From positions 124,001-188,000 of the forward strand of contig JAZGUH010000331.1 in assembly GCA_037893225.1 (NCBI GenBank): 64,000 bases of DNA. Reading direction: 5' to 3'. The position numbers were made by a program, and so were the translations under genes. This document shows, piece after piece, positions 20,971 to 64,000 of this stretch. Origin of the DNA: Hippasteria phrygiana. Taxonomy: Eukaryota; Echinodermata; Asteroidea; Valvatida; Goniasteridae. How positions within the stretch are numbered: position 1 is the stretch's first letter; each line of letters opens with the position of its first letter. Below the pieces are notes generated by a model. The model was not told where the DNA came from. It made no database searches and saw only the letters and a program-made list of their open reading frames with translations.

Positions 20971-21125
20971 GGCTGTTTTGGAAACTTTTCCAAAACAGCC
21001 CTTGTTTTCGTTAAGATTTTTTTTTTTTGGCTGTTTTGGAAACTTTTCCAAAACAGCCCTTGTTTTCGTTAAGATTTTTTTTTTTTTCTTTTTTTTGGCT
21101 GTTTCGGAAGTTTTCCGAAACAGCC
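20971..21125 (+). repeat. Three stacked 5' terminal hairpins
   Basis: Hairpins lie at 20971-21000, 21029-21058 and 21097-21125. The first two have arms GGCTGTTTTGGAAA / TTTCCAAAACAGCC; the third has GGCTGTTTCGGAA / TTCCGAAACAGCC. Each is followed by the same GTTTTCGTTAAGA and a T run. Changes on one arm are matched on the other. Confidence 0.9.
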
Positions 21126-21869
21126 TTTGTTTTCGTTAAGATTTTTTTTTTTTTCTTTTTTTTTTCTTTTTCTCTTTCAGACTATTGCCCATAGCATTTG
21201 TACACGTTTTCCTTTTTACCGGCACTTTGGCTACTTTTATGCAGCCGATTGTCTTTAAACTTAGCAAACACTTAAAGCAACTGCTCAGAATGTGTGCCGA
21301 ACTTTTACGTCATGATGACATCATCACGTGATTTTTTATGAATTTTTGAATTTTGAAAATCGTAACATTTGTTTCAATATATCTAGCAAACAAAACAAGA
21401 TATTTTCAAAATTCTTTTTGTGATAGCTTTGGTATGTCTCAAAGATATGCCCTAAAAGGCGAAAATTGTGTGACGTCATGATGACGTCATCAAAAATGTT
21501 TTTTTTTTTTAACGCATGTAAGCGTCAATCCGATTACAAAAATGTATATATTGAATTTTCCTCTCCCTAATTCCAAAATGTCATGATTGTGGCTCACTCA
21601 AGTAAGAAATAACAGCCATTTCAAAATTTAGACCAAATTCAATATAACACAAAGGAATTCTGGGAAGGGCAGATAACCATGGCTCAAATGTGCATGCTGT
21701 TTATAAAAAGGGTTGATTTGTAGTCTTTTTTCAAGTCGCTAGACTATTGCCCATAGCATTTGTAAACGTTTTCTTTCTTACCGGCCACTTTGGCTACTTT
21801 TAAACTTGACAGACACTTACCCCAACTGCTCACAATGTGTGCCGAATTTTATGTTATGATGACGTCGTC

Positions 21870-22460
21870 ACATGTCACGTGACGTCATCTTAAAGGGGCA
21901 TTTTTCGAAGCCATATATCTACAAAAGTACAAGTCCGATTAAGTTGGAACGTGATATCTAGGTATGCCACCGGGTGTTATAGATGAAAATTGACATGACG
22001 TTATGATTATAAGTCAGAACATGTCACGTGACGTCATCTTAAAGGGGCAGTTTTTGAAGGTCCATATCTACAGAAGTACAAGTCCAATTAAGTTATAAAG
22101 TAATATCTAGGTAGCCCAATAGGTCTATAGTTGAAAATTGACATGACATTATCATGTTGTCATCACATGTTACGTGACGTCATCTTAAAGGGGCAGTTTT
22201 TGAAGCCACATATAAACAAAAGTACAAGTTCGATTAAGTTGAAATGTAATATCCAGGCAGGTCTGCAGGTTCATAGATGAAAATTGACATGACATTATGA
22301 CTTCATCACATGTCACGTGACGTCATCTTAAAGAGCCAGTTTTTGAAGCCATATATATACAAAAGTACAAGTCCGATTAAGTTGAAAAGTTATATCTAGG
22401 TAGGTCAGCAAGTTTATAGATGAAAATTTATGTGACTTTATGATGACGTCATCACATGTC
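21870..22460 (+). repeat. 145-bp tandem repeats in H1
   Basis: The unit start CACGTGACGTCATCTTAAAG recurs at 21876, 22025, 22170 (with TACGTG) and 22314, a period of 143-149 bp. Each unit contains GAAGCCATATATCTACAAAA-like and GTACAAGTCCGATTAAGTTG-like segments and ends near GATGACGTCATCACATG. Confidence 0.88.
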
Positions 22461-22626
22461 ACTATTACAAACAACTTTAATTAATTTCAAAATTAACAAA
22501 GAAAAGTGGCAGTAGTGCGATTGTTTGACAAACTTTAATTGTTGTATTCACATTTCACATCCAAACTAAAAAAAAAAAACGAAACAGCCCTGTGTTTGTC
22601 CACAAACACCAACCTCATGCCTCTAG

Positions 22627-24119
22627 TTTTTTTTTTTTTTTTTTTTTTTTTTCCTTTTCAGACTTTTTGCCCATAGCATTTGTGCACGTTTTCTTTCTTA
22701 CCGGCACTTTGGCTACTTTGGTGCACCCGATTGCCTCTAAACTTGGCAGACACTTAGACTAACTGCTCAGAATGTATGCCGAACATTTACGTCATGATGA
22801 CGTCATCACGTGATTTTTTATGAATTTTTGAAATTTGAAAATCGTACACTTCTTTTCAATATTTCTGGCGAACAAAACAAGATATTTTCAAAATTCTTTT
22901 TGTTACAGCTTTGGTAGGTCTCAAAAATATGCCCTAAAAAGGAAAAAAGTGTGTGACGTCATGATGACATCATCAAAAATGTGCTTTTTTAAAACACATA
23001 TAAGGATAGGTCCGATCGTCATGAAAATTGGTGGGTAGGTAGATACTGGCACTAGGATGCAAAATCCAAAGTGACGTCATGATGACGTCATCACGTGATT
23101 TGTTATGAATTTTTGAAATTTTGAAAATCGTAACATTCTTTTAAATATATCTGGCAAACAAAACAAGATATTTTCAAAATTCTTTTTGTTATAGCTTTGG
23201 TAGGTCTCAAAGATATGCCCTAAAAAGGAAAAAAATGTGTGACGTCATGATGACATCATCAAAAATGTGCTTTTTTAAAACACATATAAGGATAGGTCCA
23301 ATCGTCATGAAAATTGGTGGGTAGGTAGATACTGGTACTAGGATGCAAAATCCAAAGTGACGTTATAATGACGTCATCATGTGATTTGTTATGAATTTTT
23401 GAAATTTTGAAATCGTAACATTCTTTTAAATATATCTCGCAAACAAAACAAGAGATTTTCAAAATTCTTTTTGATACAGCTTTTGGTATGTCTCAAAGAT
23501 ATGCCCTAAAAGGCGAAAATTGTGTGACGTCATAATGACGTCATCAAATTTTTTTACGCATGTAAGGGTCGTTCCGATTAAGAATTTATACATTGAATTT
23601 TTCTCTACCTAATTCAACAATTTCGTGATCGTGGCTCACTCAAGTATAAAGAAATAACAGGCATCTAAAAAATTGTGACCAAATTAAATATAACACAAAG
23701 GAATTCTGGGAAGGACAGAAACCATGGCTTTCATGTGGCATGCTGTCTATAAAGAGTTGATCTCTAGTCTTTTTTTCAAGTCGTTAGACAAGTCGTAGGC
23801 AGATACTTACAAAAACTGCTCAGAATGTGCGCCGAACTTTTAGGTCATGATGACGTCATCACATGTCACGTGACGTCATCTTAAAGGGGCATTTTTGGAA
23901 ACCATATATCTATAAAAGTACAAGTCACATTAAGTTAAAACGTGGTATTTAGTTATGCCAGCATGTGTTAGATGAAAATGTATGTGACGTCATGATGACG
24001 TCATCGGCTAATTTTCTATGATTTTTTTCATTTTTGAAATTTCATTTAAATCACATAATTTTACACAAACAAACAAAACAGCCCTGTGTTTGTCCACAAA
24101 CACTGCACCATACATCTAG
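22627..24119 (+). mobile_element. Helitron-like unit H2, joined to H1
   Basis: It starts with the T tract directly after the CTAG of H1, then TTTTTGCCCATAGCATTTGT. A CRE-rich segment follows, repeated with variation (about 22780-23470), then the CGCATGTAAGGGTC / GGAATTCTGGGAAGG segment and one 145-bp-type repeat. The 3' end has AACAGCCCTGTGTTTGTC, the hairpin 24086-24103 and CTAG (24116-24119) before TTTC. There is no 5' hairpin of its own, so H1 and H2 form a head-to-tail concatemer. Confidence 0.7.
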
Positions 24120-27978: not shown

Positions 27979-29133
27979 GGAAAGATTTTATTTTAATACC
28001 TCCCACCAGAATCGGTCAGGAACAGCAAAATCTTGGAAAATAATTAACCCTTCTTGATAACAACCCTAAATGTGTGGCACAGCCTGTTATTTCAAGATTT
28101 ATGTCAGCAGAATGTGTAAAATTTAGGCAGAAATGAACATGTAGGCCTCCTATGTTAAAACTTTGAGTGCCAAGAACATCACAGAAAACACTAGCTTGAA
28201 AATTCCAGCTCTAGGCTCATGTGAGATTCGCCATTTAGAGCTGGAAGGACTTCCATAGATAGGGTTCGCAAGGGTCGGCTTTGATATTGCCGATATCTTC
28301 CGTTTCCCTGAATATATCAACCAAACACTCACCTTGCCGGCAGAGTAGTAATTCATGCAGCTTGTCATCCCCTCAAAATGAGAATATGCTCAAGTTAAAC
28401 CCGAAAAAAAATGAATTTTTCGTGCAACTTCGGTGCATGCACAAACCAGCTGTGTACAAAGTAATGGAGAGGATTTTTGAACATGAACGATGTTTTCCGA
28501 TCGATTATCGGCCAGCGGCACTGCGCGCGCCTCGGGGCTCGATATACAACGGCTGTTTGCTGAAATACTGACAGCAATCAGCAAACAGCCGTTGTATATC
28601 GAGCCCCGAGGCGCGCGCAGTGCCGCTGGCCGATAATCGATCGGAAAACATCGTTCATGTTAAAAAATCCGCTCCATTACTTTGTACACAGCTGGTTTGT
28701 GCATGCACCTAGTTGCATGAAAAATTCATTTTTTTTTCGGGTTTAACTTGAGCATATTCTTATTTTGAGGGGATGACAAGCTGCATGAATGACTACTCTG
28801 CCGGCAAGGCGAGTGTTTGGTTGATATATTCAGGGAAACGGAAGATATCGGCAAGATCTAAACCGACCCTAACGAACCCTATAGAATTCATTCCAGCTCT
28901 AAATGGCGAATCTCACGTCATGAGCCTAGAGCTGGAATTTTCAAGCTAAGAAAACACAAGCTTTCTTCCCCTATCATCATCATGACTATTGCACGAAGAT
29001 TTCGCAAATAAATTCTCAAATTTAAAGGTTGTGCCAAGTGTTTATACAATTCTGAACACAGATGGATGGTTATTTTCCAAAATTTGCTATTCCTGACCGA
29101 TTTTTGTTGGGGGTATTAAAGTAAAATCTTTCC
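27979..29133. repeat. 1.15-kb near-perfect palindrome (foldback)
   Basis: Left arm 27979-28562 and right arm 28579-29133 are inverted copies separated by a 16-nt spacer (28563-28578). The inner roughly 80 bp on each side are essentially identical (CAGCAAACAGCCGTTGTATA next to the spacer). Identity falls outward, with substitutions and indels, but GAAAGATTTTA / TAAAATCTTTCC still mark the outer ends. No coding domain is recognised. Confidence 0.92.
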
Positions 29134-37700: not shown

Positions 37701-40700
37701 GACATTGAGCCCCAGGAGATAGAGTCAGCACTGGCCGCCTTATTAGGGCTACGGTATGTGTTGTTCGGATGGATTGAAGGACCCGGCGGCCATCGCTGAA
37801 GAGGCAGCCGTATTACGTATATTACACTGTTTATCGGCCTAACAACATTTGTCTGTTTGTTTTACTTTGTGTATGGTTTGAAGTTGGACTTCCGGGGAAT
37901 GTGTAAAAAAATAATAATAAATAAATAAATAAATAATCCGCCCGCCCGCCCCCTACTGGCGAAGGGTTGTGGAGGACAACCAAACAATTTTTTGTTGGCC
38001 TTATTTATATTAGATAGTACATTGATTTCATGACAATTCATTAAAAGCAAATTGTCGGTTTGCGTACGGTACGCATTGGCTTGGACCTCCCCCCTGTATA
38101 TACGCATGGTGTACGCAATGTCAACAACCCCCCTCCCCCTTCGTTCGTACGTACTTTATGGACGGCTCCACAACTGTCAACATGGAAAATGTATTATCCT
38201 TCTGGCTTTATACAAGTTCTGAGTAGAGTCATTAATATTATAGGTAGTGTACACGATTGGTAATCCTCCAATATTTTTTACTGAATTATTACGAAATACC
38301 TTACTAGACTATAAGTAAATAGCAGTCGCAAGCATCCTGTGAAATCATGGCACCTGGTGTGCTGTCGTTTTCAAGAAAAGTGGAAATTGATATCGTTTTC
38401 TAACGATTGTCGGCCGACAATCCTTGGAAATAGTCTAGTTCCCCGACCTAATAATTCCCTGACGTCTATAAGTTGCTACGTTTTGTCTAAAGTATGGTCA
38501 GGGAACCAGACTAATTGAACACATTTTTGTCTCTCTACGCAGACTACGGTTTTCCCAGCATATATGCACACAAACAACTTGAAACAGGTCAGTGTTTCAG
38601 TATTTGCTAGCACCCTATAAAATACTAACCCCAAATCATGTATTTCTTGAAATTACAGCAAAAGCAAATGGTGTACACTACATTTAAACGTTGAAGTGTT
38701 TTTCAGTCCCAAATTTATGTATTTTATTTAACAGGCATTTGCAACAGTTGATCATTACAGAGATTATATGATTCAAAAGTGGCGGCAGGACACATGTTCT
38801 TTTCCAAATCTGCAGGAACTGTTTGACCATTAGCCTTTTAGAGGTATGGCGGACACAATAGGAGAGGGCGCTATTTGATTTGGGTATACCTTTTGTTAAA
38901 CCACAGGAAATTTCAAAGTTGAAGATTAGGCATGATCTATGGATTGTACTATGGATTGTACTTTAACTCAAAACAATATCTGATTCTGACTTTCACTGGA
39001 ATTTGTGTTTTCACAAAATGTTTACCCAAATCAAATAGCGCCCTCCTATTGTGTCCGCCATACCTCTAAAAGGCTAATGTACTGACCGCATAATTTAACA
39101 CTAGTTGCTCTAAACGATAATCGTGTTTCGAAAGGGAACTTTCTTGTTACGAGTAATTCAGTAAGCCGAGAGCTACGGACATTTATTGGAAAACTCAATA
39201 ACTCTGCCGGTAAAGCTGGCTGTTACTGTTGTGGAAGAAATAGTGACAAGTATTTTTATTCGTATTAGATCAGAAATTCACTTTTCCAATAAAACTGGAA
39301 TATTTTATCTCGAGTCATTTGTAACCTTAAATGTAGTATAGAACATTTGCTTTTGCTGTAATTTTCATAAATGAATTGGATTTGGGGTTATAGCAAATGC
39401 TGTAACACTGACCTGTTTTAAGTTTTGTGTGCATAGATGCTGGGAAAACAGACAAAACGGAACAATTTATAGATATCGGGGAATTATCAGGTCGGGAACG
39501 ATTGTCGGCCGACAATAGCTCGAAATAAAAATGTTTAAATCAACTTTTCTTGAAAATGACAGCACACCAGGTGCCATGATTTCCCAGGAGAGACTTATTT
39601 ACTTACAGTCAAGTAAGGTATTTCATCATAATTCGGTAGTTTGGTTTTTGATGTTTGCAAATGTTATATTACATCTAAGGTCCCGTGTCTTTTATATAAG
39701 GTATAGCTCCGAAAATCGCTTTGTGCGCAAAATAGTAAAATTGCCAGAATATAGTAAAGACAATGTAGACAATGTAAAGAAATCAAAGATGCCTGACTTA
39801 TGGCACTAACATGTTGCTCTCTATTGCGATCCATTTCTAGCACGGACAAATGTTGGGCGGGAATTCATCTTTGCCTACGCCGAGAACTACCGGCCGAATG
39901 CAGACCCCTCGGTTATCGTCACTAACATGTCCCCGCTGGACCACGAGGTCGTGACTGTCACTATCACATCGACCGTACATGGCCTCCTCCAGACCGTTAC
40001 ACTACGGGGCTTCCAAAGCTCACAGCAGGTCTCTCTGTCCAGGGAAGTTATTCCGGTCAGTCCCGACCTGGACATGGTAGCCATCATAGTTGAAGCCGAC
40101 GATGATGTCGCTGTCTTTGCCATCAACGACGCCCATGACCGGTCCATGGATGGCTTTACTGTTTTACCTGTCAGCTCGTTGGGGACTGAGTACTATGTGG
40201 CCACCTACACTCCATCACTACGCTCTCAGATTGTCATCGTTGCCTCAGAGTCCCATACAACTGTGCGTGTGGAGCTCTCTAGTACTGTCACGTACAAAAA
40301 CAGGGATGTGGAGGGAGGGGATTACATCCTGATAGAGGCACAGCACCATGAAGCGCTGCTACTGAACGGCAAGGCGGACCTGACGGGAACCAGGGTCCTG
40401 TCCAATAAACCGATAGCCGTGCTGTCTGGTAATCGGTGTGCCTTTATCCCTGAAGGCGTCATCTCCTGCGACCATCTAGTTGAGATGCTGCCTCCTTTCA
40501 GTCAGTGGGGGCGCAAGTTCGTCCTGATGCCGTTCCGCGGCCGGTCAACCGGTATTATTTACCGCGTCATTGCCGGTCGAAGTAACACGGAGGTTACCGT
40601 TAACTCGCAGAAGATATCCCTGGGGCGGGGGCAATACAGCGAGTTCGAGGTTGCAGTCGATCAAAGCGATTTCATGCAGTCTGACCATCCCGTGCAGGTT

Positions 40701-43700
40701 GTACAGTACGCGAAGGGATTCAAAGCTGATGGTGTTTTGGGAGACCCTGCCATGACTATAGTTCCCCCTATGGAGCAGAGCGTTCACACTGTAAAACTGG
40801 CCACCTACAACATGACAAAAGACTTGAACACGGTGGAAAACTACGTTAACATCTATGCACCGTGCACAGAGATGTACTACTCCAACTTAACGCTGGACGG
40901 CGTGGCAATCCGTGATATCGTGGGTACTGATGGTGGCATTGTCCGGGCAGACCGCTCTGATTTCTGTGCAGTGGGCCTGCACCTTAGCCACGGACTGCAC
41001 GCCATCTCCCCTGCGTCCAAGGGAGGAGAAAGTTTCGTTGCTATCGCCTATGGCTTTGCGAAGATGAATTCCTACGCCTGGCCAGCGGGTCTGTCGACCC
41101 ATAGCATCACGTGCAAGCACGTGGCACCAGACGGTGGGGAGAGGGATTACGATTGCAACAAGGCGCTGTTTATTGAGGAAATTCCCTGCAATACGTCGGG
41201 CATCATCGAGGACGTGGAATGTCTCAATGTAGACTGCCTTCCATACGGTGAGAATTTCGTAGACCATAAATAGGGCCTTTATAGTACGTCCAGCATTGTA
41301 TTAGACTGAGAACCTAGTATCTCTTGAACGATTTCAGATACAATTTACTCAATTACACCTGCAGGATTTGGGGTCTTAGTTCTGATTTAAATCTGAGTTT
41401 TATGGACAAACACAACCTCGAAAAAACAGGTGTTGTGTGCAACTTTTTTGCACCAGTGAGTGAAGCCATGATGTGATTAAATTGTGAATGATTTAAGAAA
41501 AGGGGCTGGTTGAGCATAAACATATTAGCAAGTGCATTTTGAAGAGCAAGACTTGTGGGGGAAAGTGTAATAGATAAAATAATTTGGTACCAGACCATAA
41601 AAACACTGTGAATAGGACGTTAAAAGTAGTTTACACGATTGGTAATCCTCCATTTTTTTAAACTGAATTATTACGAAATACCTTACCAGACTGTAAGTTA
41701 AGTTAATAGTAGTCTCAATCATCCTGTGAAATGATGGCACCAGGTGTGCTGTCGTTGTCAAGAAAAGTTGAAATTTATATCGTTTTCCAACGATTTCCAG
41801 CTGGAAATCGTTGGAAATCTGCCCTGTAGCCTTTAGTCAAGGCGCGCGTGGCTACCTGGACGAGTGGCGCGCCACGGACATGCTGGCATTCGGGGCGCGT
41901 CACATAGCCACGCGCGCCTTGGCTAAAGGCTATCATCCGCCCGACTCTTTTTTCGGCATCCAACAACGCAGAACTTCTATTTAAATTTTACTGAAGATGA
42001 AAAAATCGATTAAATTCTGTGAGAGGCAAATTGGAATCGGAAAGTGGAGTCACAAATGGATGAAACTTCGCCCCCCAAAAATCATTTTATTTTTTGCACT
42101 TCAATTTTAACATGAAGTGCTCGAAAACGACAGGCCCATGAGTGTGACGTATGTCTCGTGTACTATACTGACGGGTTGCTATACTTTTGTTCTTTCCTGT
42201 CTGTTTCCTTTTAACAGATTACGTCATCTACATCTGTGCTGGGGTGGCAGTTGCCGCAATTATCCTGCAGAAAATGTTCAGTCATTTTGTCATAAAGAGA
42301 ACGAAGTAAGCTCAAGGTTTTGTCCCTCGGTATTCTTTTATTTGAAGATTGGCATCAACAGTTGTCCCTCAGCTCCCATCCCAGGTCAGGGTCTGGCATG
42401 CCATACATGCTTGTCATATAAATCGCCTTTCATATCAATCGCCTCTTTCCATAGCCTAGCCCTGGGAGTCATGCATGCTGGGAGTAGAATCAAAAGCCAG
42501 ATTTCCATATGCATACTTAATATGTGCATGAAGTCGCAATGAGCGCCGACAGCACAACATAAATGTCAAGTCACAGGCTGTCGGGCATAGCCGGTTTATG
42601 GCGTCCAAACTTTCAAGAGATAACGGTGTTGTAGTACTCGTACTCGTAGGCATATCATGAAAATGTAGGCCTACTTGGATTCGGGACAATGTACTGATGC
42701 TCCATGTGAAATGCATGAGGTCGCACATTGAAATTGTTTTTACTTTTTCATGGCTTCTAGTTCTCCCATGTTTATATTTGAAGTACCAAACACACATGGC
42801 CACTATTGGACTTGATGTTGATGCAAAGTTCAAAAAGGGGAAGAGGTCAAGCGTACAGGAATTAACATTTAACATTAACATTCATTAGACTGTTTGCTGT
42901 CTGTCATGTGCATTGATATATTCTATACAATCTTCAAATTTCCAGTAAAAAGGACAACTGGGCCAAGCTCATTGTACTCGAGCAGTACAGCGTATGGACA
43001 ACGTTGAACCGTAGCTATTCCCATGACTCGACGCAGATAGTCGGCACATTGGTCCAACTGTGCCGATTAAATGCTTGCTTCAGTCACGACCATGCATGGT
43101 CACGACATTACGTTTTAATAATCAGCGCTGCCGTCGGTGACTTCTTGCAGACGCCGTCGGCGATTGTAACAAATACATGCATGGGATTGAAGGCAAGAAT
43201 CAAAGGGCAAAATTATTGAAAACGCATATCAAGCTCCCATCAATATCGCAGCAATGCCTTTTAAAGTTACAACAAAAATTTCATTTTGATCAGTAGAGGC
43301 CCCAGAAGATAATGCTACAAAGAGCGTATCAGTTGTAAAGGCCCATTGGCATGAACAGAAAGTCGCCCCATGGCATTCTAAGTTAAGCAATACAACTATT
43401 TTCCCCCTTGAAGGTCGATTTTGAAATTTAAATATTTTTTAATCCGAACACAACAATTGTTTTTGACGGTTGCTAGGGTTTTTATAATAATTAGACGTGC
43501 TCCAACGGCGGCGGAACAGGGGAATGGGCTAGGGGACTCCCCCCCCCCCCCCCCCCCCCCCCCCCACTTTTGGAAGTTCCGCATAAAGAAAAACTAAGAA
43601 AATGGCAGCACCCGGCCGGCACCGGCGCTACTTTTCCCCCAATTTTAAAAGTGTTCCGGCGCTGTTAACATGCTCTGATAATATGCTTCACACGGTTCAC

Positions 43701-49995: not shown

Positions 49996-50068
49996 TGGCA
50001 GGAGCGGGATTTGAACCAGCGACCTCCGGAATACCGTACCGGCGCTCTACCAACTGAGCTATCTTGCA
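49996..50068 (-). tRNA. tRNA-like sequence, degenerate (pseudogene or SINE head)
   Basis: On the minus strand the box A region TAGCTCAGTTGGTAGAGC and box B GGTTCAAATCC are intact and 73 nt fit the tRNA length. The acceptor stem has two mismatches, the T stem one, and the anticodon loop lacks the usual U33, so an amino acid cannot be assigned. A genomically encoded CCA-like end (TGCCA) is just acceptor sequence. It is more likely a pseudogene or tRNA-derived SINE head than a working tRNA. Confidence 0.6.
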
Positions 50069-51673: not shown

Positions 51674-52014
51674 GGCTGTTTTGGAAACTTTTCCAAAACA
51701 GCCCTTGTTTTCGTTAAGATTTTTTTTTTTTTCTTTTTTTTTTTTTTGGCTGTTTCGGAAGTTTTCCGAAACAGCCTTTGTTTTCGTTAAGATTTTTTTT
51801 TTTGGCTGTTTCGGAAGTTTTCCGAAACAGCCTTTGTTTTCGTTAAGATTTTTTTTTTTGGCTGTTTCGAAATTTTTTCGAAACAGCCCTTGTTTTCGTT
51901 AAGATTTTTTGGCTGTTTCGAAAGTTTTTCGAAACAGCCCTTGTTTTCGTTAAGATTTTTTTTTTTTTCTTTTTTTTTTTTTTTGGCTGTTTCGGAAACT
52001 TTTCCGAAACAGCC
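51674..52014 (+). repeat. Six stacked 5' terminal hairpins
   Basis: Hairpins at 51674-51703, 51748-51776, 51804-51832, 51860-51888, 51911-51939 and 51985-52014. Each is followed by TTGTTTTCGTTAAGAT and T runs. Arms vary (TTTTGGAAA, TTTCGGAA, TTTCGAAA), always with the matching change on the other arm. Confidence 0.92.
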
Positions 52015-53249
52015 CTTGTTTTCGTTAAGATTTTTTTTTTTTTCTTTTTTTTTTTTTTTTCTTTTTTTTTTTTTTTTTCTTTTTCAGCCAAATGCCCATA
52101 GCATTTGTACACGTTTTCTTTCTTACCGGCACTTTGGCTACTTTTATGCTGCCGATTGGCTTTAAACTTGGCAGACACTTAGACTAACTACTCAGAATGT
52201 ATGCCGAACATTTACGTCATGATGACGTCATCACGTGATTTTTTATGAATTTTTGAAATTTGAAAATCGTAAAATTCTTTTCAATATATCTGGCGAACAA
52301 AACAAGATATTTTCAAAATTCTTTTTGGTATAGCTTTGGTACGTCTCAGAGATATCCCCTAAAAGGGAGAAAATGTGTGACGTCATGATGACATCATCAA
52401 AAATGTGCTTTTTTAAAACACATATAAGGATAGGTCCGATCGTCATGAAAATTGGTGGGTAGGTAGATAGTGCCACTAGCATGGAAAATCCAAAGTGACG
52501 TCATGATGACGTCATCGGCTGATTTTCTATGAATTTTTAGTTCTATCCCAAATCCCATAGACTTTGTACACGAATTTTGTAAGAGCCACTTTGGTCACTA
52601 AACAACCTCAGATCTTTATCAGGTTTAACTCAAACAGAGACCCTAAGCTGAAAATGTATGCCGAAGAGTGACGTCATGATGACGTCATCACTTGTCATGT
52701 GACGTCATCTTAAAGGTGCATTTTTCAAGGGCACATATCTAGAGAACCGTAGGTCCGATTCCATTCAAACCTGCTATGGTGGTAGACAAGTACGTGTTAT
52801 AGATGAAAATTGAGGTGACGTCATGATGACCTCATCATACGATTTTAAAGTAATTGTAAAGTTTTTTAACCTTAAAGTTTCTTAAACCCATATCTCTTTA
52901 ACAGAACATGCTAAATTCAAAATTCTTTTTGTAATAGCTTTGTTAGCTCCTATATTCTTTCACATAAATGGGAAAATGTGTGACGTCATCATGACGTCAT
53001 CAAAAATATGCTTTTTTGAAACACATATAAGGGTAGGTCCGATCGTCATAAAAATTGGTGGGTATGTAGATAGTGCCACCCGCATGCAGAAGCCGAAGTG
53101 ACGTCATGATGACCTCATCGGCTAATTTTCTATAATTTTTTAATTGTTTTAATTTTATTAAAATTTTTGAAATTTAATTTTAATCACCAAATTTTACACA
53201 AAAAAACCGAAACAGCCCTGTGTTTGTCCACAAACACTATTGGCTCTAG
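51674..53249 (+). mobile_element. Helitron-like unit H3
   Basis: It opens with six stacked 5' hairpins (51674-52014), then T/C tracts, CCCATAGCATTTGTACACG and the CRE-rich body. It ends CGAAACAGCCCTGTGTTTGT, the hairpin 53220-53237 and CTAG (53246-53249), immediately followed by the T tract and leader of the next unit. Open frames in the T-rich part are poly-Phe/poly-Lys artefacts. Confidence 0.72.
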
Positions 53250-53446
53250 TTTTTTTTTTTTTTTCTTTTTCAGACTTTTTGCCCATAGCATTTGTACACG
53301 TTTTCTTTCTGCCAGGCACTTTGGCTACTTTTATGCAGCCGATTGCCTTTAAATTTAACAGACACTTAGACCAACTGCTCAGGATGCATGCCGAACTTTT
53401 ACGTCATGATGACGTCATCACGTAATTTTTTATGAATTTTTGAATT

Positions 53447-54400
53447 TTGAAAATCGTAACATTCATTAAATTATATCTAGCGAACCAAATAAGATATTTT
53501 CAAAATTCTTTTTCTTATGGCTTTGGTATGTCTCAAAGATATGCCCTAAATTGCGAAAATTGTGTGACGTCATGATGACGTCATCAAAAATGTGTTTTTT
53601 TGTTAACGCATGTAAGGGTCAATCCGATTACAAAAATGTATATATTGAATTTTCCTGTACCCAATTCCAAAATTTCATGATCGTGGCTCACTCAAGTATG
53701 AAATAGGAGCCATTTCAAAATTTAGACCAAATTCAATATAACACAAAGGAATTCTGGGAAGGGCTGATAACCATGGGTATTATGTGCTTGCTGTTTATAA
53801 AAGGGTTGATTTCTAGTCTTTTTTCAAGTCGCCAAATTTTTGAAGTATTAAAATCGTAACATTCTTTTCAATATATCTAGCGAACAAAACAAGATATTTT
53901 CAAAATTATTTTTGTTACAGCTTTGGTATGTCTCAAAGATATGCCCTAAAAAGCGAAAATTGTGTGACGTCATGATGACGTCATCAACAAATCTTTTTTT
54001 TTTTAACGCATGTAAGGGTCAATCCGATTACAAAAATGTATACATTGTATTTTTCTGTACCCAATTCCAAAATTTCATGATCGTGGCTCACTCAAGTAAG
54101 AAATGACAGCCATTTCAAAATTTAGACCAAATTCAATATAACACAAAGGAATTCTGGGACGGGCTGATAACCATGGCTATTATGAGCTTGCTGTTTATAA
54201 ACGGGGTTGATTTCTAGTCTTTTTTCAAGTCGCTGAATTTTTGAAGTTTTAAAATCGTAACATTCTTTTCAATATATCTAGCGAACAAAACAAGATATTT
54301 TCAAAATTATTTTTGTTACAGCTTTGGTATGTCTCAAAGATATGCCCTAAAAAGCGAAAATTGTGTGACGTCATGATGACGTCATAAAAAAATTCTTTTT
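53447..54400 (+). repeat. 400-bp tandem repeats in H4
   Basis: The marker TGTGTGACGTCATGATGACG falls at 53561, 53961 and 54362, a 400-401-bp period. Each unit holds CAAAACAAGATATTTTCAAA, ACGCATGTAAGGGTCAATCC and GGAATTCTGGGAMGGGCTGA segments. Confidence 0.9.
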
Positions 54401-55130
54401 TTTAAGTCGCTAGAATATTGCCCATAGCATTTGTAAACTTTTTCTTTCTTACCGGCCACTTTGGCTACTTTTAAACTTGGCAGACACTTACCCCAACTGC
54501 TCACAATGTGTGCCGAACCTTTACGTCATGATGACGTCATCACATGTCACGTGACGTCATCTTAAAGGGGCATTTTTCGAAGCCATATCGTCACACAAAA
54601 AGTACAAGACCGATTAAGTTGGAACGTAATATCTAGGTATGCCACCGGGTGTTATAGATGAACATTGACATGACGTTATGATCAAGTCATAACATGTCAC
54701 GTGGTGTCATCTTAAAGGGGCACTCGCTAGATTATTGCCCATAGCATTTGTAAACGTTTTCTTTCTTACCGGCCAGTTTGGCTACTTTTAAACTTGGCAG
54801 ACACTTACCCCAACTGCTCACAATATGTGCCGAACTTTTACGTCATGATGACGTCATCACATGCCACGTGACGTCATCTGAAAGGGGCATTTTTCGAAGC
54901 CATATTTTTACCGAAGTAGAAGTCAGATTAAGTTGAAAAGTAATATCTAGGTAGCCCAGTAGATTATCTTAAACAATTTTGTGTCAGGAATGCTTGTAGG
55001 CCGGCATGTGTTATATATGAAAATTGATGCGACGTTGTGGTGACGTCATCATATGATTTTAGAGTAATTGTTTTACTTTTGAATCTTTAAGCTATAAGGC
55101 CTATCTCATCAACTGAACATGCTAATTTCG

Positions 55131-57035
55131 AAATTCTTATTGTAATTCTTTTTGAAATAGGTTGTTTAGGTAAACAAGTTTTACGTTCTGTGATTTGGGA
55201 GGATTTAACATAATTTTCAAAAATAGTTGTTGTATTTTGTTCCACTCAAGTAAATGTTGTCTCAATCGTATTTTGGATTACCTTACTTTTAATTTCCAGT
55301 TTATAATTCCCAATGTATTAAAAAAAATGCGTTCTGTGATTTTCTACTGCTCAAATAAAGTTTGTTTCAGCCGTCTATTCTTTAAGGTGTGTTGCGTTAA
55401 TTACTGGTTTTCCGTTTTCAAACACTACATGGGTTATGCTTCGCTCTCACCCACCGCTCTATGTGTGTGTTTGCCTTAAATTGTTAGTTAAGTTTGGTAT
55501 ACAGTGCTAGGCGCCACCGGACAAAATCCGTGAATGAATTTTTACCAGTAAACTCGTATGCTGCCCTCTACAGTTCACTAAACACAACCAGAGGAGTATT
55601 TTTTTAAGTACTACCGCCCTCTTGCGCTAAAAAGTTGACAGGTTTGTCAATTGTGGCAGAGAAACTTTTGACCAGTAAGATTATGTCGAACTTTCCTTGC
55701 ATTTAACTGTACCTCCCTAGGGTGTGTGGAAAATCATATTACAATTGGAGAATTCAGGACTATTAGGGTTAATAAGACCGTATTTTCTTTCAATTATATA
55801 CTGTAATAAAAATATACTAGTAAGACTTCATTAAATAACTCTCTTTATTCAAAGGTCTTGTTTTCAAAGAATTCTTTTTATTGCTTCCTACGTGCCACAA
55901 TGTCAACATGCATTTTTATCAAGAACATATCACATAATATTAATAAAGATTCAAATTTGAGAGGCAAGTTACTCCAATACAAGCCTGAAAACAAAATGTT
56001 GAAGAGAAAAAGTTGTGTATTTAACAAGTGCATTCAGTGAAAAGCACAGAAACAATCATGCGTCTTATAACATTCTTTCCAAATTCTTATTGTAATTCTT
56101 TTTGAAATATGTTTTTTACGTCATAGGTAAACAAGTTTTGCGTTCTGTGATTTGGGAGGATTTAACATAATTTTCAAAAATAATTGTTGTATTTTGTTCC
56201 ACTCAAGTAAATGTTGTCTCAATCGTCATTTGGATTACCTTACATTTAATTTCCAGTTTATAATTCCCAATGTATTAAAACAAATGCGTTCTGTGATTTT
56301 CTACTGCTCAAATAAAGTTTGTTTCAGCCGTGCATTCTTTAAGGTGTGTTGCGTTAATTTCTGGTTTTCCGTCTTCAAACACTACAGGGGGTATGCTTCG
56401 GTCTCACCCACCGCTCTATGTGTTTGTTTGCCTTAAATTGTTAGTTAAGTTTGGTATACAGTGCTAGGCGCCACCGGACAAAATCCGTGAATGAATTTTT
56501 ACCAGTAAACTCGTATGCTGCCCTCTACAATTCACTAAACACAACCAGAGGAGTATTTTTGTAAGTACTACCGCCCTCTTGCGCTAAAAAGTTGACAGGT
56601 TTGTCAATTGTGGCAGAGAAACTTTTGACCAGCAAGATTATGTCGGACTTTCTTTGCATTTAACTGTACCTCCCTAGGGTGTGTGGAAAATCATATTAAA
56701 ATTTGAGAATTCAGGACTATTAGGGTTAATAAGACCGTATTTTCTTTCAATTATATACTGTAATAAAAATATACCAGTAAGACTTCATTAAATAACTCTC
56801 TTCATTCAAAGGTCTTGTTTTCAAAGAATTCTTTTTATTGCTTCCTACGTGCCACAATGTCAACATGCATTTTTATCAAGAACATATCACATAATATTAA
56901 TAAAGATTCAAATTTGAGAGGCAAGTTACTCCAATACAAGGCTGAAAACAAAATGTTGAAGAGAAAAAGTTGTATTTAACAAGTGCATTCAGTGAAAAGC
57001 ACACAAACAATCAGGCGTCTTATAACATTCTTTTT
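55131..57035 (+). repeat. Two 950-bp modules in H4
   Basis: The module start AAATTCTTATTGTAATTCTT occurs at 55131 and 56081. Both hold GGAGGATTTAACATAATTTT, GTGCTAGGCGCCACCGGACA and CATGCATTTTTATCAAGAAC. Frames of 94 and 60 codons recur, but they open with TTG and one copy elsewhere carries a stop, so I do not call them genes. The module differs in base composition and lacks CRE motifs, as expected of inserted or captured sequence. Confidence 0.85.
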
Positions 57036-57052
57036 GAATTACAGACATACAT

Positions 57053-58170
57053 GATGACGTCATCACATGCCACGTGACGTCATCTTAAAGGGGCAGTTTT
57101 TGAAGCTATATATCTACAAAAGTACAAGTTCGATTAAGTTGAAAAGTAATATCTAGGTAGCCCAGTAGGTTTATAGCTGAAAATTGACATGACATTATCA
57201 TGATTGATGTCATCACATGTCACGTGACGTCATCTTAAAGGGGCAGTTTTGAAGCCATATATCTACAAAAGTACAAATTCGATTAAGTTGAAATGTAATA
57301 TCCAGGTAGGTCTGCAGGTTCATAGATGAAAATAAACATGACAATAGGACGACGTCATCACATGTCACGTGACGTCATCTTAAAGGGGCAGTTTTGGAAG
57401 CCATATATCAACAAAAGTACAAGTTCAATTAAGTTGAAACGTAATATCTAGGTAGGCCAGTAGGTTTATAGATGGAAATTGACATGACATTATCATGATG
57501 TCATCACATGTCACGTGATGTCATCTTAAAGGGGCATTCGCTAGACTATATTGCATTTGTACATGTTTTTTTCTTACTGGCACTTTGGGTACTTTTAAAA
57601 TTGGCAGAATTGCTCAGAATGTGTGTCGAACTTTTATGTCATGATGACGTCATCACATGTCAACTTGACGTCATCTTAAAGGGGCATTTTTCGTAGCCAT
57701 ACATTGTGTATCTACACAAGTACAAGTCCGATTAAGTTGAAACGTAATATCTAAGTATGCTACACGGTGTGTTATAGATGAAAGTTGACATAACGTTATG
57801 ATGACATCACATGTCACGTGATGTCATCTTAAAGGAGCATTCGCTAGACTATTGCCCATAGCATTTGTACACTTTTTTCTTATTGGCACTTTGGGTACTT
57901 TTCAAATTAGCAGACACTTAGACCAACTGCTCAGAATGTGTGTCGAACTTTTACGTCATGATGACATCATCACATGTCACGTGACGTCATCTTAAAGAGG
58001 CATTTTTCAAAGCCATATATCTACAAAAGTACAAGTCCGATTAAGTTGAAACATGTATCTAGGTATGCCACCGGGTGTTATAGGTGAACATTGACTTGAC
58101 GTTATGAAGTGATCACATGTCACGTGATGTCATTTTAAAGGGGCATTCGCTACACTATTCCCCATAACAT
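57053..58170 (+). repeat. 145-bp tandem repeats in H4
   Basis: CACGTGACGTCATCTTAAAG-type unit starts fall at 57071, 57221, 57366 and 57512 (period 145-150). Later units are interspersed with partial copies of the element leader (CATTCGCTAGACTA... GCATTTGTACA). Confidence 0.85.
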
Positions 58171-58372
58171 TTGTACTCGATTTCTTTCTTTAAACCAATC
58201 CTTCACACATCCAATAACGTTAATTATTGTATAAACATTTGACTAACTAACACAATAAAAAAAACACGAAACAGCCCTGTGTTTGTCCACGGGACAAACA
58301 CATAACATGTCTAGTTTCTTTTTTTTGGCTGTTTCGAAAGTTTTTCGAAACAGCCCTTGTTTTCGTTAAGAT

Positions 58373-58404
<32 letters not shown>

Positions 58405-58709
58405 TTTTTTTTTCTTTTTCAGACTTTTTGCCCATAGCATTTGTACACGTTTTCTTTCTGCCAGGCACTTTGGCTACTTTTATGCAGCCGATTGCCTTTA
58501 AATTTAACAGACACTTAGACCAACTGCTCAGGATGCATGCCGAACTTTTACGTCATGATGACGTCATCACGTAATTTTTTATGAATTTTTGAATTTTGAA
58601 AATCGTAACATTCATTAAATTATATCTAGCGAACAAAATAAGATATTTTCAAAATTCTTTTTCTTATAGCTTTGGTATGTCTCAAAGATATGCCTTAAAA
58701 AGCGAAAAT

Positions 58710-59935
58710 TGTGTGACGTCATGATGACGTCATCAAAAATGCTTTTTTTTTTTAACGCATGTAAGGGTCAATCTGATTACAAAAATGTATACATTGTATT
58801 TTTCTGTACCCAATTCCAAAATTTCATGATCGTGGCTCACTCAAGTAACAAATGACAGCCATTTCAAAATTTAGACCAAATTCAATATAACACAAAGGAA
58901 TTCTGGGACGGGCTGATAACCATGGCTATTATGAGCTTGCTGTTTATAAAAGGGGTTGATTTCTAGTCTTTTTTCAAGTCGCTGAATTTTTGAAGTATTA
59001 AAATCGTAACATTCTTTTCAATATATCTAGCGAACAAAACAAGATATTTTCAAAATTATTTTTGTTATAGCTTTGGTATGTCTCAAAGATATGCCCTAAA
59101 AGGCGAAAATTGTGTGACGTCATGATGACGTCATCAAAATTTTTTTTTTTTTTAACGCATGTAAGGGTCAATCCGATTACAAAAATGTATACATTGTATT
59201 TTTCTGTACCCAATTCCAAAATTTCATGATCGTGGCTCACTCAAGTAAGAAATGACAGCCATTTCAAAATTTAGACCAAATTCAATATAACACAAAGGAA
59301 TTCTGGGACGGGCTGATAACCATGGCTATTATGAGCTTGCTGTTTATAAAAGGGGTTGATTTCTAGTCTTTTTTCAAGTCGCTGAATTTTTGAAGTATTA
59401 AAATCGTAACATTCTTTTCAATATATCTAGCGAACAAAACAAGATATTTTAAAAATTATTTTTGTTATAGCTTTGGTATGTCTCAAAGATATGCCCTAAA
59501 AGGCGAAAATTGTGTGACGTCATGATGACGTCATGAACAATATTTTTTTTTTTTAACGCATGTAAGGGTCAATCCGATTACAAAAATGTATACATTGAAT
59601 TTTTCTGTACCTAATTCCAAAATTTCATGATCGTGGCTCACTCAAGTAAGAAATAGGAGCCATTTCAAAATTTAGACCAAATTCAATATAACACAAAGGA
59701 ATTCTGGGAAGGGCAGATAACCATGGCTTAAATGAGCATGCTGTTTATAAAAAGGGTTGATTTGTAGTCTTTTTTCAAGTCGCTGAATTGTTAAATTTTT
59801 GGAATCGTAACATTCTTTTCAATATATCTAGCGAACAAAACAAGATATTTTCAAAATTCTTTTTGTTATAGCTTTGGTATGTCTCAAAGATATGCCCTAA
59901 AAAGCGAAAATTGTGTGACGTCATGATGACGTCAT
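58710..59935 (+). repeat. 400-bp tandem repeats in H5
   Basis: Four markers at 58710, 59111, 59511 and 59912 give periods of 400-401 bp. H4 has three such units, so one unit was gained or lost since the duplication. Confidence 0.9.
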
Positions 59936-60362
59936 AAAAAAAATCTTTTTTCAAGTCGCTAGAATATTGCCCATAGCATTTGTAAACGTTTTCTTTCTTA
60001 CCGGCCACTTTGGCTACTTTTAAACTTGGCAGACACTTACCCCAACTGCTCACAATGTGTGCCGAACCTTTACGTCATGGTGACGTCATCACATGTCACG
60101 TGACGTCATCTGAAAGGGGAATTTTTCGAAGCCATACTTTTACCGAAGTAGAAGTCAGATTAAGTTGAAAAGTAATATCTAGGTAGCCCAGTAGATTATC
60201 TTAAACAATTTTGTGTCAGGAATGCTTGTAGGCCGGCATGTGTTATATATGAAAATTGATGCGACGTTATGGTGACGTCATCATATGATTTTATAGTAAT
60301 TTTTTTACTTTTGAATCTTTAAGCTATAAGGCCTATCTCATCAACTGAACATGCTAATTTCG

Positions 60363-62270
60363 AAATTCTTATTGTAATTCTTTTTGAAATAGGTTTTTTA
60401 GGTAAACAAGTTTTACGTTCTGTGATTTGGGAGGATTTAACATAATTTTCAAAAATAGTTGTTGTATTTTGTTCCACTCAAGTAAATGTTGTCTCAATCG
60501 TATTTTGGATTACCTTACTTTTAATTTCCAGTTTATAATTCCCAATGTATTAAAAAAAATGCGTTCTGTGATTTTCTACTGCTCAAATAAAGTTTGTTTC
60601 AGCCGTCTATTCTTTAAGGTGTGTTGCGTTAATTACTAGTTTTCCGTTTTCAAACACTACATGGGGTATGCTTCGCTCTCACCCACCGCTCTATGTGTGT
60701 GTTTGCCTTAAATTGTTAGTTAAGTTTGGTATACAGTGCTAGGCGCCACCGGACAAAATCCGTGAATGAGTTTTTACCAGTAAACTCGTATGCTGCCCTC
60801 TACAGTTCACTAAACACAACCAGAGGAGTATTTTTTTAAGTACTACCGCCCTCTTGCGCTAAAAAGTTGACAGGTTTGTCAATTGTGGCAGAGAAACTTT
60901 TGACCAGTAAGATTATGTCGAACTTTCCTTGCATTTAACTGTACCTCCCTAGGGTGTGTGGAAAATCATATTACAATTGGAGAATTCAGGACTATTAGGG
61001 TTAATAAGACCGTATTTTCTTTCAATTATATACTGTAATAAAAATATACCAGTAAGACTTCATTAAATAACTCTCTTTATTCAAAGGTCTTGTTTTCAAA
61101 GAATTCTTTTTATTGCTTCCTACGTGCCACAATGTCAACATGCATTTTTATCAAGAACATATCACATAATATTAATAAAGATTCAAATTTGAGAGGCAAG
61201 TTACTCCAATACAAGCCTGAAAACAAAATGTTGAAGAGAAAAAGTTGTGTATTTAACAAGTGCATTCAGTGAAAAGCACAGAAACAATCATGCGTCTTAT
61301 AACATTCTTTCCAAATTCTTATTGTAATTCTTTTTGAAATATGTTTTTTACGTCATAGGTAAACAAGTTTTGCGTTCTGTGATTTGGGAGGATTTAACAT
61401 AATTTTCAAAAATAATTGTTGTATTTTGTTCCACTCAAGTAAATGTTGTCTCAATCGTCTTTTGGATTACCTTACATTTAATTTCCAGTTTATAATTCCC
61501 AATGTATTAAACAAAATGCGTTCTGTGATTTTCTACTGCTCAAATAAAGTTTGTTTCAGCCGTCTATTCTTTAAGGTGTGTTGCGTTAATTACTGGTTTT
61601 CCGTTTTCAAACACTACATGGGGTATGCTTCGCTCTCACCCACCGCTCTATGTGTGTGTTTGCCTTAAATTGTTAGTTAAGTTTGGTATACAGTGCTAGG
61701 CGCCACCGGACAAAATCCGTGAATGAGTTTTTACCAGTAAACTCGTATGCTGCCCTCTACAGTTCACTAAACACAACCAGAGGAGTATTTTTTTAAGTAC
61801 TACCGCCCTCTTGCGCTAAAAAGTTGACAGGTTTGTCAATTGTGGCAGAGAAACTTTTGACCAGTAAGATTATGTCGAACTTTCCTTGCATTTAACTGTA
61901 CCTCCCTAGGGTGTGTGGAAAATCATATTACAATTGGAGAATTCAGGACTATTAGGGTTAATAAGACCGTATTTTCTTTCAATTATATACTGTAATAAAA
62001 ATATACTAGTAAGACTTCATTAAATAACTCTCTTTATTCAAAGGTCTTGTTTTCAAAGAATTTTTTTTATTGCTTCCTACGTGCCACAATGTCAACATCC
62101 ATTTTTATCAAGAACATATCACATAATATTAATATAGATTCAAATTTGAGAGGCAAGTTACTCCAATACAAGCCTGAAAACAAAATGTTGAAGAGAAAAA
62201 GTTGTGTATTTAACAAGTGCATTCAGTGAAAAGCACAGAAACAATCAGGCGTCTTATAACATTCTTTTTG
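60363..62270 (+). repeat. Two 950-bp modules in H5
   Basis: Starts at 60363 and 61313, the same period as in H4. The first copy carries TACTAG in place of TACTGG at about 60637, which ends the 94-codon frame early. Confidence 0.85.
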
Positions 62271-63557
62271 AATTACAGACATACATGATGACGTCATCAC
62301 ATGCCACGTGACGTCATCTTAAAGGGGCAGTTTTTGAAGCTATATATCTACAAAAGTACAAGTTCGATTCAGTTGAAAAGTAATATCTAGGTAGCCCAGT
62401 AGGTTTATAGCTGAAAATTGACATGACATTATCATGATTGATGTCATCACATGTCACGTGACGTCATCTTAAAGGGGCAGTTTTGAAGCCATATATCTAC
62501 AAAAGTACAAATTCGATTAAGTTGAAATGTAATATCCAGGTAGGTCTGCAGGTTCATAGATGAAAATAAACATGACAATAGGACGACGTCATCACATGTC
62601 ACGTGACGTCATCTTAAAGGGGCAGTTTTGGAAGCCATATATCAACAAAAGTACAAGTTCAATTAAGTTGAAACGTAATATCTAGGTAGGCCAGTAGGTT
62701 TATAGATGGAAATTGACATGACATTATCATGATGTCATCACATGTCACGTGATGTCATCTTAAAGGGGCATTCGCTAGACTATTGCATTTGTACATGTTT
62801 TTTTCTTACTGGCACTTTGGGTACTTTTAAAATTGGCAGACACTTAGACCAACTGCTCAGAATGTGTGTCGAACTTTTATGTCATGATGACGTCATCACA
62901 TGTCAACTTGACGTCATCTTAAAAGGGCATTTTTCGTAGCCATACATTGTGTATCTACAAAAGTACAAGTCCGATTAAGTTGAAACGTAATATCTAAGTA
63001 TGCTACACGGTGTGTTATAGATGAAAGTTGACATAACGTTATGATGACATCACATGTCACGTGATGTCATCTTAAAGGAGCATTCGCTAGACTATTGCCC
63101 ATAGCATTTGTACACTTTTTTCTTATTGGCACTTTGGGTACTTTTCAAATTGGCAGACACTTAGACCAACTGCTCAGAATGTGTGTCGAACTTTTACGTC
63201 ATGATGACATCATCACATGTCACGTGACGTCATCTTAAAGAGGCATTTTTCAAAGCCATATATCTACAAAAGTACAAGTCCGATTAAGTTCAAACATGTA
63301 TCTAGGTATGCCACCGGGTGTTATAGGTGAACATTGACTTGACGTTATGAAGTGATCACATGTCACGTGATGTCATTTTAAAGGAGCATTCGCTACACTA
63401 TTCCCCATAACATTTGTACTCGATTTCTTTCTTTAAACCAATCCTTCACACATCCAATAACGTTAATTATTGTATAAACATTTGACTAACTAACACAATA
63501 AAAAAAACACGAAACAGCCCTGTGTTTGTCCACGGGACAAACACATAACATGTCTAG

Positions 63558-64000
63558 TTTTTTTTTTTTTTTCTTTTTCAGACTTTTTGCCCATAGCGTT
63601 TGTACACGATTTCTTTCTGCCAGGGACTTTGGCTAGTTTTATGCAGCCGATTGCCTTTAAACTTAACAGACACTTAGACCAACTGCTCAGAATGTATGCC
63701 GAACTTTTACGTCATGATGACGTCATCACGTGATTTTTTATGAATTTTTGAATTTTGAAAATCGTAACATTCATTAAATTATATCTAGCGAACAAAACAA
63801 GATATTTTCAAAATTCTTTTTCTTATAGCTTTGGTATGTCTCAAAGATATGCCCTAAAAAGCGAAAACTGTGTGACGTGATGATGACGTCATCAAAAATG
63901 CTTTTTTTTTTTAACGCATGTAAGGGTCAATCTGATTACAAAAATGAATATATTGAATTTTGCTGTACCCAATTCCAAAATTTCATGATCGTGGCTCACT
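63558..64000 (+). mobile_element. Helitron-like unit H6, cut by window end
   Basis: T tract, TTTTTGCCCATAGCGTTTGT leader and the first part of the 400-bp repeat follow the H5 CTAG. The array therefore continues beyond the window. Confidence 0.72.

Follow-up and report, generated by a model that had tools for sequence, protein, structure and literature searches.

Head-to-tail Helentron-like arrays in the sea star Hippasteria phrygiana probably arose by nested insertion into the elements' own T tracts

Introduction

Helitrons standing in tandem have been quoted in support of rolling-circle transposition (PMC5876387), and those of bat and silkworm are usually read as the outcome of rolling-circle bypass of the terminator (PMC4067079). 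Members of the Helentron family insert into T runs without changing the target (PMC4067079). Here we examine two head-to-tail arrays of a Helentron-like element in 64,000 nt of the 944-Mb assembly of Hippasteria phrygiana (contig JAZGUH010000331.1 of GCA_037893225.1; C331:124001-188000), a stretch that we call the window and number from its first base. A sequence-only reading had taken the arrays for concatemers, made by rolling-circle replication that read through the termini. We propose instead that they are very probably nested self-insertions of a HINE family, in which newcomers entered the T tract between the 5' module and the body of an older copy. Stacked modules, mirrored types and complementary cut tracts are what we observe.

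Several described systems come close. HINE and DINE-1-like Helentrons (Thomas et al. 2014, PMC4067079) share with the sea-star family palindromic subterminal inverted repeats (subTIRs), a 3' palindrome, internal tandem repeats, T-rich targets and variable numbers of T at the ends; the sea-star family differs in having its own long C-marked T tract inside of the 5' module, many copies nested there and a CTAG end. Pacific oyster HINEs (PMC7492417) also have subTIRs, a 3' palindrome, internal tandem repeats and T-rich targets without target duplication, and the available part of their description does not mention a nested stack of 5' modules. With the Fusarium element FoHeli (Chellapan et al. 2016, PMC5148889) the family shares self-insertion and several 5' ends with one 3' end. 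That study proposed that Helitrons with two 5' ends move as a unit that begins at the outer 5' end and stops at the first 3' end, and it left open whether a three-copy tandem case came from 5'-end insertion or from rolling circle. Compared with FoHeli, the sea-star arrays keep matching 5' and 3' halves, hold up to ten bodies and have target tracts that can be rejoined. Tandem dimers formed through insertion-site preference (McGurk and Barbash, told in PMC12628747) likewise involve repeated insertion into a preferred site, but in the sea-star family this site lies inside the element, so that the order is nested. The family belongs to a known kind of element, here in a sea star, and self-insertion with multiple 5' ends was proposed earlier for Fusarium Helitrons. 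A limited literature search (nested Helentrons, T tracts, sea stars) found no description of arrays that grow by insertion into an internal T tract and keep their matching halves.

Anatomy of the element

Each element reads, from left to right, T's, a palindromic 5' module, a C-broken poly-T leader, a body, a 3' subTIR, a short hairpin, CTAG and T. The 5' module, which the sequence-only reading missed, is 45-46 nt long and consists of a 13-bp hairpin (GGCTGTTTCG...CGAAACAGCC) followed by yTTGTTTTCGTTAAGA. Ten copies lie in the window: a stack of three at 20971-21141, a stack of six at 51674-52030 and a single one at 58327. The hairpin is perfect in 10/10 modules, with all 130 stem cells paired, and two stem pairs differ between subfamilies with both sides changed together. 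DNA folding of four modules gave z-scores of -5.8 to -7.1. By their hairpins we distinguish types I (CGGAAAC..), I' (TGGAAAC..), II (CGGAAG..) and III (CGAAA..); bodies were typed by their first 330 nt. We considered whether the change from CG to TG/CA in type I' modules is plain CpG decay and dropped the idea: the two sides of the stem have changed in step, and TTTTCGTTAAGA keeps its CpG.

The first ten bases of the module are an inverted copy of the subTIR right before the 3' hairpin, a 10-nt match seen in 5/5 nested pairs. The two ends vary together: directly attached type I' modules go with AAAACAGCC (2/2) and the other attached modules with GAAACAGCC (10/10). Between module and body runs a long T tract interrupted by single C's, and the body itself is largely made of GACGTCA-rich repeats. 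In bodies B and C (named below) a 957-bp segment unlike the rest of the body occurs twice in tandem (55167-57040 and 60399-62274).

At the 3' side, a 20-mer picked out by the sequence-only reading has five window copies (four exact, one with one mismatch), all on the forward strand, against 0.03 expected from shuffles. All five hairpin-plus-CTAG ends that it had reported next to T (22626, 24119, 53249, 58314 and 63557) are present, with CTAG, a mark of canonical Helitrons in its CTRR form, after the hairpin in 5/5 and T right after it each time. The hairpins fold in 4/4 ends tested (z -2.3 to -4.9), and the fifth end, 63557, is letter-identical to 58314. Among 30 sampled ends in the genome, CTAG is followed by 2-15 T's at 27, and 3 have no CTAG in the stretch tested. 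The canonical Helitron 5' TC and insertion between A and T are not seen here: the element starts TT-GGCTG beside T's and has T on both sides. With subTIRs, a 3' palindrome, hairpin plus CTAG and T-rich junctions all present, this anatomy supports the assignment to non-autonomous Helentrons (HINE) that had been made at first sight. As in HINEs, no transposase coding is seen: across both window arrays the sole stop-to-stop frame of at least 120 aa is one of 124 aa lying over the module stack, and the search against Pfam covered frames of at least that minimum length.

Some bodies end differently. Two of them, on the reverse strand of C12:461001-475500 (L038+L043) before base 3232 and on the reverse strand of L039 before base 547, lack the hairpin and stop exactly at an internal ...ATATCTAG, after which come T's and the next 5' module. 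It is as if CTAG alone perhaps served as a cleavage site there.

The family is abundant. Allowing at most 2 mismatches, the 3' end has 6,615 copies genome-wide and the 5' module core 5,535, with 0 for the controls; the ratio between them is only rough because the two search patterns differ in length. Exact-pattern scans of viral contigs (2) and of other genome contigs (1), in sets without sea-star DNA, gave no match.

The two arrays

All parts lie on the forward strand. Array 1 opens with two type I' modules, m1' (20971..21016), for which no body was found, and m2' (21029..21074), followed by the type II module m3' (21097..21141), which is directly joined to body u1. The T tract, body u1 and its 3' end (subTIR, hairpin and CTAG at 22623-22626) fill 21142..22626. 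Then come a remnant T tract (T26 CC T4 C) and body u2, whose 3' end carries CAAAACAGCC (22627..24119, CTAG 24116-24119) and whose nesting partner is m2'.

Array 2 opens with a stack of six: m1 (type I', 51674..51719, followed by a tract T13 C T14 and then m2), m2 (type II, 51748..51792), m3 (type II, 51804..51848), m4 (type III, 51860..51904), m5 (type III, 51911..51955, the same as m7) and m6 (type I, 51985..52030). The last is directly joined to an uncut T tract and body A (52031..53249, CTAG 53246-53249), and together they form the innermost element, inside the T tract of m5-B. Body B follows behind a remnant tract T15 C T5 C (53250..58314, CTAG 58311-58314). After T3 C T8 (58315..58326), the middle piece of the m4-D tract between two inserts, the type III module m7 (58327..58371) is directly joined to an uncut tract (T13 C T28 C T5 C) and body C (58372..63557, CTAG 63554-63557). 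A remnant tract T15 C T5 C and the start of body D (63558..64000) reach the window edge, past which the array continues through bodies D to J. It ends at 76601 in window numbering (C331:200601), so that array 2 has seven modules and ten 3' ends in all. The partners of m4 and m5 are D and B, and those of m3, m2 and m1 are F, G and H, outside the window.

What follows each 3' end

Read-through of a terminator would put a module after every CTAG. In fact, this is the case at just 1/4 internal window junctions, and the other three go straight into a distal T tract and body. Four ends had been described as running directly into the T tract and leader of another unit. Three do so (22626, 53249 and 63557). 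After 58314 come T3 C T8 and a complete 5' module, and only then the leader; the sequence next to 24119 is not a leader. At 30 sampled 3'-end loci the end is followed by a leader without module in 21, by a module in 5 and by other sequence in 1, and 3 have no CTAG. One locus counted among the 21, L017, shows a different family's module: just past its 3' end stands another palindromic module, GGCTTTTCCGAAATCCTTCGGAAAAGGC..., which probably marks a second HINE family in the same kind of T tract. Among the matches listed (contigs C1-C18), 45/99 modules are followed by another module within 130 nt and 8/69 3' ends by a module; these neighbour counts take exact matches only, so that AAAACAGCC ends are left out, and places on C19 and C22 (31/100 3' ends, 1/100 modules) were dropped.

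The modules missing from the junctions are piled at the left ends of the arrays, three in array 1 and six in array 2, and there they stand in mirror order to the bodies, as nested insertion predicts. Replication past the 3' terminator, laying down a head-to-tail concatemer, would account for the single orientation of all units, for the near-identical neighbours B and C with a module between them, and for surplus bodies (E, I and J, below). Most joins, though, lack the module, which is stacked instead; adjoining units belong to different subfamilies; and stack and bodies pair in mirror fashion. Thus rolling-circle read-through as the cause of the head-to-tail order is not supported, and we consider it highly improbable. 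Bypass of 3' ends may still lie behind the surplus unpaired bodies.

Modules and bodies pair like brackets

If newcomers split residents, each module of a stack should close with one body further right. Within the window the nesting pairs are m6-A, m5-B, m7-C, m4-D, m3'-u1 and m2'-u2. Leaders fall into the groups {u2, A}, {B, C, D} and u1, and modules into {m2', m6}, {m4, m5, m7} and m3'. Distances between modules and between leaders correlate with r 0.88 (Mantel test), a value reached by 2/720 relabellings. Module m5 is letter-identical to m7, and bodies B and C share 98% identity over 3604 nt and 97% over 1125 nt. There are 40 ways to assign stack modules to bodies u2, B and D: type fits 4 of them, C marks fit 6, and both fit a single one, the nested one. 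This test and the Mantel test were run before genome sequence outside the window was examined.

Taking the arrays of the window and the genome together and closing modules strictly as a stack, 9/10 pairs are concordant in type against a shuffle mean of 4.2, and at least 9 was reached by 304/200000 shuffles. The tenth pair involves u2, whose leader group has no copy seen carrying its own module. The pair counts leave out C1_190 (5 ends, 0 modules), C2b_r (6 ends, 1 module, no stack), three C12 bodies and one C8 body that were not covered as far as their left boundary, and four unpaired bodies, namely E, I and J of array 2 and the last one of C2; the shuffle also leaves out F, G and H.

Unequal crossing-over or slippage between T tracts could have duplicated the modules and bodies of one founder. 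Like modules do stand side by side (m2 = m3; m4 and m5 are one base apart), T tracts are prone to slippage, and lost modules might be explained in this way. Yet different subfamilies alternate within one array, a body of one type lies between the matched halves of another type's element, and the tract past the last CTAG of array 1, just T3 C T C C T, offers little length for such an exchange. We regard this origin as very unlikely.

Cut T tracts can be rejoined

Since each element carries its own marked T tract, it holds a built-in empty site, and sequence alone can separate nested insertion from a concatemer. In C the tract is uncut and reads T13 C T28 C T5 C. When A is removed, the tract of B becomes T13 C T30 C T5 C; when two inserts are removed, that of D becomes T9 C T23 C T5 C. 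Bodies F and G are preceded by T4 C T10 C T5 C T C T3 C which, together with the T11 beside m3 and m2, gives the C-mark pattern of the uncut u1 tract, T13 C T10 C T5 C T C T3 C.

Arrays elsewhere in the genome behave in the same way. In the innermost unit of C4 the tract is uncut and reads T13 C T26 C T11 C T5 C, and a cut tract of the same array, T13 C T23 plus T3 C T11 C T5 C, is equal to it. In C2, rejoining gives T15 C T27 C T5 C for a resident with two cuts and T13 C T14 C TTC TTC T5 C for a second resident; the uncut counterpart of the latter, in C12, reads T13 C T12 C TTC TTC T5 C. One C12 tract becomes T13 C T14 C T11 C T5 C when rejoined, and its uncut counterpart reads T13 C T26 C T11 C T5 C. 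Altogether, the C-mark order of the uncut copy is kept in 10/10 comparable cut tracts (B, D, F, G, two in C4, two in C2, one in C12 and one in C10). As a check for target-site duplication, cut tracts rejoin with 0 to few T's gained or lost, a figure in which duplicated T's are indistinguishable inside the T run.

Past the window edge and in other arrays

Before reading past the window we set down a prediction: exactly three more bodies closing m3, m2 and m1, namely a type II body with the proximal C mark, another type II body with the mark and a type I body without it that ends in CAAAACAGCC, and then host sequence. After D the contig holds six bodies, E to J, and then non-element sequence, and the predicted three are present in order and kind: F and G are type II with the proximal mark, and H belongs to the u2 group, has the CAAAACAGCC end and lacks the proximal mark. 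The other three, E of the type III group and I and J of the u2 group, were not predicted. Clustering confirms the body groups of array 2, and the mirror order of its bodies is fitted by 1/30 distinct stack orders.

Counts of modules and ends differ between arrays. Modules and bodies number three each in C4. C10 has two inner modules that close correctly and two outer ones for which the 1.4 kb past the last 3' end holds no body. Amplification of 5' ends on circles that lack the 3' terminator, as Xiong et al. 2016 proposed (told in PMC12628747), would produce stacks of up to six 5' modules and surplus modules such as those of array 1 and C10. Elsewhere, however, 3' ends equal or outnumber modules (7 modules and 10 ends in array 2, 3 and 3 in C4), and one stack holds different module types, with matching 3' ends. 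Such circles are therefore an extremely improbable source of the stacks. C10 and array 2 also have in common an I'-II-II stack with identical spacing (T13 C T14, T11), which fits the movement of chunks as composites.

Points that weigh against nested insertion

Several observations do not sit easily with nested self-insertion. The predicted number of bodies was wrong, with six beyond D instead of three. E, I and J have no module (7 modules for 10 3' ends), and the pairs of F, G and H require that E be skipped. Counted in the reverse direction, 78/560 body orders would fit too. Modules are in surplus over bodies in array 1 (3:2) and in C10 (4:2). At the C2 junction E 7459 (L037), the 3' end at 2459 is followed at 2499-2515 by TTTTCGTTAAGATTTTT, which is the right-hand portion of a module; its left-hand portion was not found. 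C12 begins within another body whose right half was not seen. Run lengths of rejoined and uncut tracts differ (T14 instead of T26 in C12, and a G in place of one T in C4), and u2, H and the C8 pair have no uncut counterpart among the tracts seen. Empty sites could be demonstrated only within the family's own T tracts, not in host DNA.

An autonomous partner sharing these ends was sought as well and not found. Helitron_like_N has 150 scored matches in the genome, of which the best 12 have stop-free open frames of 2,385-3,266 aa. One frame of 3,108 aa (L059-L062, on C612 and C225) is an autonomous Helentron with OTU, Rep, PIF1 and endonuclease domains. Its second copy is 99.8-100% identical over the flanks compared, which contain tandem repeats, and this points to recent activity. 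HINE ends were not found in the flanks covered, that is, in 19 kb around the 3,108-aa copy, in three further stretches and at 12/12 short loci, which together are part of the full flanks. This too counts against our proposal, which we nevertheless hold to be very probable.

Other features of the window

An exon resembling that of IgGFc-binding proteins lies at 39810-41273 (+) and matches PF17517, with 67%, 68% and 63% identity to proteins of the sea stars Patiria, Acanthaster and Asterias, its closest matches. Frames at 4374-5921 (+) have a weak, below-cut-off match to reverse transcriptase and are retroelement remains. A long, foldback-like inverted repeat occupies about 28255-28885, with its centre near 28570, arms of about 309 nt, 26 mismatches and a loop of 14 nt. 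At 49996-50068 (-) stands a tRNA-like sequence that scores above the Rfam gathering threshold.

A self-made landing pad

How would such arrays grow? We suggest that insertion goes into T runs of one strand, the mover presumably being a Helentron Rep-helicase-endonuclease. T runs of at least 10 number 24 within the two arrays and 2 in the remaining window, which means that most of the best targets of the family come from the family itself. Its leaders are the longest T runs nearby, and a newcomer would thus split the 5' module of a resident from its body. One insertion would yield resident module, whole new element and resident body, in this order; repeated insertion would stack 5' modules at the left and leave bodies at the right in mirror order, producing something that resembles a concatemer. 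Moving chunks may start at an outer 5' module and stop at an inner 3' end, or pass a first 3' end and stop at one further on; such composite movement would leave surplus modules (array 1 and C10) or surplus bodies (array 2).

More tentatively, and with somewhat more doubt than conviction, we envision the internal poly-T leader as a self-landing pad that draws new copies into old ones while their bodies and 3' ends stay whole. The module would be usable with any later 3' end, so that nested arrays could move as composites, and the module stack would be an ordered, bracket-readable log of insertions. If this landing-pad idea is true, head-to-tail Helitron arrays that have been cited for rolling-circle transposition would need to be read again. 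If nested insertion proves true genome-wide, the order of insertions could be read from a single array and target preference measured in a natural genome, and a stepwise route from mobile element to satellite-like arrays would be laid open.

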